Source of the DNA: Candidatus Aenigmatarchaeota archaeon
GTDB taxonomy: Archaea > Aenigmatarchaeota > Aenigmatarchaeia > QMZP01
Assembly: GCA_016185435.1 (NCBI GenBank)
Contig: JACPNN010000008.1
Coordinates: forward strand, 1 to 34,093
Direction of reading: 5' to 3'
DNA length: 34,093 nucleotides
Below the pieces are notes generated by a model, which saw nothing but the letters and a program-made list of their open reading frames with translations, made no database searches and had not been told where the DNA came from. This document shows positions 6,573-10,418 of this stretch, piece after piece; the first letter of the stretch is position 1, and each line of letters begins with the position of its first letter. The position numbers and the translations under genes are program-made.

Positions 6573-6596
6573 TAAAATACAACGCCCCCGCCGGGA

Positions 6597-6678
6597 TTTT
6601 CACCATGATTATCCAGCTCAGTATGTGTATTCCCTTTTTCTGGATAACCTACCCTCTTTTTTGGAAAAAGAGGGTGGA
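6597..6678 (-). other. tRNA-Glu intron 2, T-loop position 59/60
   Basis: T-loop bases UUCA pair with UGAA near the intron end, leaving bulges AA|U on both sides and an intron helix CCA/UGG, while T-stem CCGGG/CCCGG is the exon helix. Inside are two hairpins (ACCCUC/GAGGGU and UUAUCCAG/CUGGAUAA). The intron is 82 nt long. Confidence 0.85.
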
Positions 6679-6699
6679 TTTGAACCCGGGTCTCGGCCT

Positions 6700-6750
6700 C
6701 GCTCCAGCGTCTTTCTTTGGTGCATCTTTCTTTTTTAAAGAAAGGTGCTG
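6700..6750 (-). other. tRNA-Glu intron 1, canonical position 37/38
   Basis: The BHB is textbook: exon helix CGGCC/GGCCG, 4-bp helix CUCU/GGAG, bulges CG|C and CG|A, and intron helix AGC/GCU. The 51-nt intron also contains a hairpin built from CUUUCUUU and AAAGAAAG (6726-6744 on the plus strand). Confidence 0.88.
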
Positions 6751-6865
6751 CGAGAGGGCCGCATACTTGGCCTCTATACGACGGGGGCAATATTGCTCCA
6801 CTCCTTTTTAAGTTTCTGATGATTATAAAAAGAGTGCCCACAATAATTTAAGGTAACTGATTTCC

Positions 6866-7972: not shown

Positions 7973-8110
7973 GGGCCCGTGGCTCAGTGGTAGAGCACCA
8001 CACTGATAACACCTCTGTATTTAAAGGAAAATAGGGATGGGGGGTAAAGGGGATTCCCCTTTGCGCTGGCGGATATGTGGGGGTCGTGAGTTCGATTCTC
8101 TCCGGGCCCA
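7973..8110 (+). tRNA. tRNA-Ile(GAU) with one intron
   Basis: Acceptor GGGCCCG (7973-7979) pairs with CGGGCCC (8103-8109), with A73 at 8110 and no encoded CCA. The D-arm is GCUC/GAGC, the anticodon stem CCACA/UGUGG, and the loop CU-GAU-AA gives anticodon GAU. The T-arm is GUGAG/CUCUC with loop UUCGAUU and one U-U mismatch (50-64). A 66-nt intron (8009-8074) interrupts the anticodon loop, leaving a 72-nt tRNA. Confidence 0.9.
8009..8074 (+). other. tRNA-Ile intron, position 37/38
   Basis: The splice motif is relaxed: CUGA against GCGG gives three pairs and one mismatch, with bulges UA|A and AU|A and a two-pair intron helix. Inside the intron, AAAGGGG and CCCCUUU form a strong hairpin. It lacks the CUUUCUUU/AAAGAAAG module seen in the Glu and Ala introns. 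Confidence 0.75.
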
Positions 8111-10117: not shown

Positions 10118-10153
10118 AAATAAGGAATATTCATTCATGGGCCGGTAGGTCAA

Positions 10154-10197
10154 AGCCTTTCTTTCCTAAAGAAAGCCTTGGGAAAGAAAACGGCAAA
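10154..10197 (+). other. tRNA-Ala intron 1, D-loop
   Basis: The intron is closed by GCC (10155-10157) pairing with GGC (10192-10194). It contains a hairpin CUUUCUUU/AAAGAAAG (10157-10175). The splice motif is a relaxed bulge-helix-loop form, so the exact edges are uncertain by one or two bases. The deduced mature D-loop AAUGGUA is normal. Confidence 0.7.
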
Positions 10198-10218
10198 TGG
10201 TAGACCGCGTGCTTCGCA

Positions 10219-10284
10219 ATGAGCCTTTCTTTTTGTAAAAAGAAACGCTCAATCGAAAGAAAACAGATTGCAAAATCACGGAAA
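10219..10284 (+). other. tRNA-Ala intron 2, position 37/38
   Basis: The BHB is canonical: exon helix CGUGC/GCACG, 4-bp helix UUCG/CGGA, bulges CA|A and AA|A, intron helix UGA/UCA. Internal hairpins are GAGC/GCUC enclosing UUUCUUUUU/AAAAAGAAA (10226-10245). Confidence 0.87.
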
Positions 10285-10306
10285 AGCACGAGGCTGCGGG
10301 TTCAAG

Positions 10307-10386
10307 ACAGGCTTTTCTTTCAAAGAAAAGCCCGTACGGCAAAAGAAGGGAATACAGATTCCATAAATAGCATAACAATGTGAAAA
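10307..10386 (+). other. tRNA-Ala intron 3, T-loop position 59/60
   Basis: UUCA (10301-10304) pairs with UGAA (10381-10384), with bulges AG|A and AA|U and exon helix GCGGG/CCCGC. The intron helix is only two pairs. It contains an 11-bp stem GGCUUUUCUUU/AAAGAAAAGCC (10310-10332). The motif GGGAAUACA (10348-10356) is also present in the tRNA-Glu T-loop intron. Confidence 0.83.
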
Positions 10387-10418
10387 TCCCGCCCGGTCCA
10401 CTAGAGGCGCCTGTAGAC

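Follow-up and report, generated by a model that had tools for sequence, protein, structure and literature searches.

Background

A maximum of three introns has been described for single tRNAs of Thermoproteales (PMC4033280), and in tRNA-Pro(UGG) of Pyrobaculum islandicum these occupy positions 25/26, 37/38 and 56/57 (PMC4090602, PMC4033280). Transposition of tRNA introns in Thermoproteales was the subject of a 2010 study, which we follow here as it is cited in the same two papers, and the mechanism of this process is unknown (PMC4090602). Intron gain in tRNA-Thr of Caldiarchaeum has been linked to a recombinase-encoding insertion (PMC3293823), and multi-intron tRNAs occur in the ARMAN-1 and ARMAN-2 lineages (PMC4033280, PMC12397907).

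To this set we compare a tRNA-Ala(CGC) gene in a stretch of 34,093 nt from an Aenigmatarchaeota genome (designated G000; the whole stretch is referred to as the window). Like the multi-intron tRNAs of Thermoproteales, with up to three introns of bulge-helix-bulge (BHB) or relaxed type per tRNA, D-arm and T-arm positions included, this gene is interrupted in several arms. It differs from tRNA-Pro(UGG) of P. islandicum in being another isoacceptor and in the positions of its introns, which lie in the D loop, at 37/38 and at 59/60. Three-intron tRNAs and intron transposition in Thermoproteales and multi-intron tRNAs in ARMAN-1 and -2 are already known, and the tRNA-Ala gene is therefore of a known kind. 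We conclude that the locus is very probably a functional tRNA-Ala(CGC) gene with three BHB-type introns, each a copy from a single hairpin family that was dispersed through transposition.

Results and discussion

Structure and splice motifs of the tRNA-Ala(CGC) gene

The four exons of the gene (Table 1), read directly from the sequence, join to a 72-nt product, GGGCCGGTAGGTCAATGGTAGACCGCGTGCTTCGCAAGCACGAGGCTGCGGGTTCAAGTCCCGCCCGGTCCA, in which 21 of 21 stem pairs form and G3-U70 and A73 are present; the anticodon CGC occupies 10215-10217 within exon 2. ARAGORN reports the joined exons as tRNA-Ala(cgc). The unspliced locus was missed by ARAGORN, intron modes included, and by Rfam at its gathering score, as the initial annotation had thought possible for a standard tRNA finder. 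The exon positions and tRNA-Ala features proposed in that annotation are all recovered in the joined exons, and its coordinates for the second and third introns proved exact except for a 1-nt sliding ambiguity at 37/38. The boundaries of intron 1 are ambiguous by +/-1, with 10152-10195 or 10154-10197 equally possible.

The introns at 37/38 and 59/60 have textbook BHB motifs. At 37/38 an outer helix CGUGC/GCACG and a central helix UUCG/CGGA are separated by the bulges CAA and AAA, and at 59/60 an outer helix GCGGG/CCCGC and a central helix UUCA/UGAA enclose the bulges AGA and AAU; both central helices, and the 3-nt bulges at 37/38, are as first described. With cleavage behind the second bulge base at 59/60, the mature T loop reads UUCAAGU, as it does in the orthologue of relative G001. 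A canonical BHB was sought for the D-loop intron and was not found; the sole helix at this junction is an inner one, GCC/GGC, with unpaired A-rich sequence around it, a relaxed form, as had been stated. Every junction of the gene accordingly carries a BHB or a relaxed BHB, canonical at two of three and relaxed in the D loop. Similar motifs accompany the T-loop introns of this genome, in which all four central-helix pairs are kept beside 3-nt bulges (10 of 12 introns) or three pairs are kept (the rest). In these 12 introns the base on the intron side varies in step with exon base 57: UUCG occurs with CGAA or UGAA, and UUCA with UGAA or UGGA.

Table 1. Positions of the tRNA-Ala(CGC) gene and its parts, of a second intron-bearing gene in the window, and of hairpin family copies outside tRNA genes with the repeats found at gene starts.
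Feature	Position	Strand	Length (nt)	Remarks
tRNA-Ala(CGC) gene	10139..10400	+	262	3 introns; mature product 72 nt
Exon 1	10139..10152	+	14	Acceptor 5' strand and D-stem 5' strand
Intron 1	10153..10196	+	44	D loop; hairpin family member; relaxed splice motif
Exon 2	10197..10218	+	22	D-stem 3' strand and anticodon-stem 5' strand
Intron 2	10219..10284	+	66	Position 37/38; BHB UUCG/CGGA; hairpin family member
Exon 3	10285..10306	+	22	Anticodon-stem 3' strand, variable region, T-stem 5' strand, TTCAAG
Intron 3	10307..10386	+	80	Position 59/60; BHB UUCA/UGAA; strong hairpin family member
Exon 4	10387..10400	+	14	T60, T-stem 3' strand, acceptor 3' strand, A73
tRNA-Glu(CTC)	6583..6788	-		Anticodon-loop and T-loop introns; T-loop intron 6622-6675 of the same hairpin family
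G000 non-tRNA copy	C9:4062			Gene-start repeat 40 nt (40/40 identical)
G000 non-tRNA copy	C9:3946			Gene-start repeat 14 nt
G000 non-tRNA copy	C7:54970			Gene-start repeat diverged
G000 non-tRNA copies	C17:136623, C17:132513, C17:132762, C17:143748, C22:56215, C9:46122
G025 non-tRNA copy	L206			Genome of another family, same order; gene-start repeat 15 nt
G025 non-tRNA copy	L207			Gene-start repeat ~23 nt
G025 non-tRNA copy	L208			Gene-start repeat 15 nt, one mismatch
G025 non-tRNA copies	Others

Evidence for a functional gene

The initial annotation had proposed an intron-aware search of the locus and had named a second intact tRNA-Ala(CGC) gene, combined with no transcript from this locus, as evidence that would speak against it. 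A purpose-written intron-aware parser scored the gene at 40.2, whereas the highest score in four null counterparts of the ~159 kb of targeted stretches was 36.2. A DNA search of the 95%-complete assembly found no second tRNA-Ala(CGC), the only other tRNA-Ala genes found being UGC and GGC-like. The GGC-like gene, probably GGC (G000:C18:3855-4016, minus strand), carries an insertion of unusual form in its anticodon loop and a further one in its variable region.

Relatives of the same family and order contain seven intron-free tRNA-Ala(CGC) orthologues, which match the window gene in the length of the D loop (7 nt) and of the anticodon and T loops and which fix the junctions of its introns. In the alignment of all eight sequences 100% of stem cells are paired and nine pairs are changed on both sides, the double changes falling in all four stems; neither figure was reached in any of 500 shuffles. 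In the window gene itself, both partners of a pair differ from the consensus in the D stem, in the anticodon stem and in the T stem, and each of these pairs spans an intron. Such changes speak for selection acting on the RNA after splicing, and not for a pseudogene.

These changes bear directly on the proposal that insertions have inactivated the gene and left a tRNA pseudogene in decay, with GCG codons read by tRNA-Ala(UGC). Such a tRNA is present in the genome and could decode GCG, so that the CGC gene might be dispensable, and the D-loop insertion is without a canonical BHB. However, none of the 21 stem pairs is broken when the introns are bridged, with double changes relative to the orthologues in the three stems named, the motifs are exact at two of the three junctions, and tRNA-Ala(UGC), located on C2, itself carries two introns (282 nt in the T loop and 143 nt at the anticodon). 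We regard decay of the locus as very improbable and retain the interpretation of a functional gene, for which we infer from the sequence that the three introns would be spliced in vivo.

Splicing enzymes of the host

A 404-aa ORF in the C5:50321 region matches the epsilon2 endonuclease of ARMAN-2 (4fz2) over nearly its full length (2.5e-92). Enzymes of that class are single three-unit chains of ~390 aa with the Y/H/K triad and the loop residues Y160/K161, a description to which the ORF conforms; the equivalents of Y236, H251 and K282 and of the ARMAN-specific loop residues Y160 and K161, all needed for epsilon2 endonuclease activity (PMC12397907), are kept. Enzymes of this type cleave relaxed motifs at various positions, according to a review (PMC4033280). 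In endonuclease architecture and key residues, in tolerance of relaxed motifs and in multi-intron tRNAs the host resembles ARMAN-1 and -2 (PMC4033280, PMC12397907), whereas the endonuclease of Crenarchaeota is of the (alpha beta)2 type (PMC4033280). The enzyme points to an ARMAN-like lineage rather than to Thermoproteales, and the host lineage apparently differs from that in which intron transposition was described. A comparison of deoxyhypusine synthase gave no clear affiliation, its best hits being spread among archaeal phyla at 62% or less. RtcB is also encoded in the genome. By analogy with established archaeal splicing, the epsilon2 endonuclease, with an ARMAN-specific loop that tolerates relaxed motifs, would cut each intron of the tRNA-Ala transcript and RtcB would join the four exons into the 72-nt tRNA.

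Between the codons for MPDGH and those for WGYGFPIGG, the rtcB gene (G000:C9:72538-73878, minus strand, locus L239) is interrupted by 30 nt that contain an in-frame stop. The insert has a BHB-like fold (GGCC/GGCU, bulges AUA and AAU), and the predicted cuts restore the reading frame exactly. A different 30-nt insert, also with an in-frame stop, is present at the same codon in rtcB of G003 (locus L245), and rtcB of G001 and of G017 has no insert. The 30-nt insert is possibly an mRNA intron in the splicing ligase's own gene.

A dispersed family of intron hairpins

The 59/60 intron resembles approximately 15-20 other places in the genome, and those with a full-length hairpin are 82-95% identical. 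Each family unit consists of a pyrimidine-purine hairpin and, after it, a purine-rich segment (AAAGAAAGG-NATTAC type). A covariance model built from 23 copies (R1) detected more than 40 G000 copies at E<1e-4, mostly in tRNA loops. It matches all three introns of the tRNA-Ala gene, with 56.1 bits for intron 3 (10310-10360, E 7.8e-14) and weak matches to intron 1 (10154-10199, 17.9 bits, E 0.0025) and intron 2 (10222-10276, 15.8 bits, E 0.009), and it also matches the T-loop intron of tRNA-Glu (70.9 bits, E 7e-18); a repeat search within the window reported no further copies. A second model (R2), built only from the G025 genome of another family, independently found 15 G000 copies at E<1e-4. Most sites are T loops; copies also occupy D loops, such as that of tRNA-Arg(GCG) at C23:4363, as well as anticodon introns, and some units are nested within others. 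The family is present in tRNA T loops of relatives G004, G005, G008, G009, G014 and G034, and many other relatives, including G001, have no copy at E<=0.01.

Similar introns in unrelated tRNAs and positions, together with intron-free orthologues in relatives, are the marks of large-scale tRNA intron transposition and are found here. The likeness to Thermoproteales, as far as the 2010 study is reported in PMC4090602 and PMC4033280, lies in similar introns being shared by unrelated tRNAs at different positions of one genome; unlike in those accounts, copies here also lie outside RNA genes, some with duplicated flanks of 14-40 nt, and nested composites occur. The duplicated tRNA fragments that accompany intron gain in Caldiarchaeum tRNA-Thr are a further point of likeness (PMC3293823), but in contrast to the Caldiarchaeum insertion the units are ~50-80 nt with no coding capacity. 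In the open-access literature searched we found no report of a dispersed intron family in ARMAN-1 or -2.

Gene conversion between tRNA loops could produce similar introns without transposition of an element, and both the predominance of T-loop copies and the similarity of T-arm exons, sufficient for recombination, would suit it. We consider it unlikely, as copies also occupy D and anticodon loops and the edges of protein genes, which have no common exon homology, and several have duplicated flanks. Under the preferred explanation of transposition, one short hairpin family would have entered many tRNA genes, in D, anticodon and T loops alike, its insertions being tolerated where they can be spliced (tRNA) or are harmless (gene edges).

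Copies outside tRNA genes

Flanking direct repeats scoring at least 14 accompany 8 of 45 G000 copies and 1 of 135 mismatched controls, although some of the repeats counted may be fragments of repeat modules and not duplicated target sites. The repeats vary in length (14-40 nt) and accompany only these 8 of 45 copies; insertion sequences and MITEs have a transposase and duplicate their target site at a fixed short length. At six sites in two genomes the repeat begins within ~3 nt of an ATG; the hairpin copy sits between two copies of the start of a gene, of which the first 14-40 nt of the ORF are duplicated, and the downstream copy opens the real gene. The two C9 sites of G000 fall within C9:3946-4113. 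The genes so opened code for a Csa3-like protein (scoring below the Pfam cut-off), for a DEAD helicase, for ribosomal protein S15 and for a cytidylyltransferase-like protein; one further ORF has no Pfam match.

The position of several G025 and G000 copies between two copies of a gene's start would also be compatible with functional 5'-leader regulatory RNAs, from which the tRNA introns derived or which they merely resemble. This is a reading to which we give little credence, because the genes concerned are unrelated (S15, DEAD helicase, cytidylyltransferase-like, Csa3-like), repeats of up to 40/40 identity look like recent insertion scars, and most family copies are tRNA introns. Within the transposition interpretation, selection to keep the ORF accounts for the inclusion of the ATG in a repeat but not for the end of the repeat at that point; the 5' end of a leaderless transcript would explain this at the six sites. 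We tentatively raise the possibility, less probable than its opposite, that this BHB-intron family (~50-80 nt) is mobile via an RNA intermediate. Copies near gene starts would then carry a duplicated transcript 5' end, as if a 5' RNA fragment had been ligated to the intron before both were copied into DNA, and the same splicing system would process rtcB mRNA. No reverse transcriptase was found in G000, and one was found in G025.

The gene-start copies were also inspected by eye as BHB-spliced mRNA introns and were not convincing in this role. Copies at C2:44274 and C2:56292, which overlap 23S/16S, are antisense to the rRNA and are therefore not counted as spliced family introns. In the rRNA region (L194; G000:C2:38537-44588 and 54936-56511) the 23S match spans ~6 kb and the 3' end of 16S lies ~4 kb from the main 16S match; the rRNA genes there probably carry several large introns.

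The tRNA set of the genome

The ~159 kb of targeted stretches of G000 also served as the basis of the tRNA inventory. The parser found another three-intron gene in these stretches, tRNA-Arg(UCU) at C13:17904-18184, and about nine genes with two introns. The view that three introns in one tRNA are rare consequently holds across archaea but not within this genome, in which multi-intron tRNAs are usual. Rfam placed 13 tRNAs of this genome over threshold. Among the individual genes, tRNA-Ile(GAT) in the window (7973-8110, plus strand) has one anticodon-loop intron and was missed by ARAGORN and found by Rfam. The tRNA-His(GTG) gene (G000:C4:82080-82659) has two introns, and a duplicate of its first 17-19 nt precedes the gene, across a hairpin copy.

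Conclusions

In the open-access literature searched we found no description of a dispersed family of this kind that shares its genome with an epsilon2 enzyme and also has copies and duplications beyond the RNA genes. In genomes like this one, much of the tRNA complement escapes standard annotation. The genome offers more than 40 related copies, some of them outside RNA genes and some with duplicated flanks, and it has intron-free relatives, so that the mechanism by which these introns spread is testable by comparison of strains.
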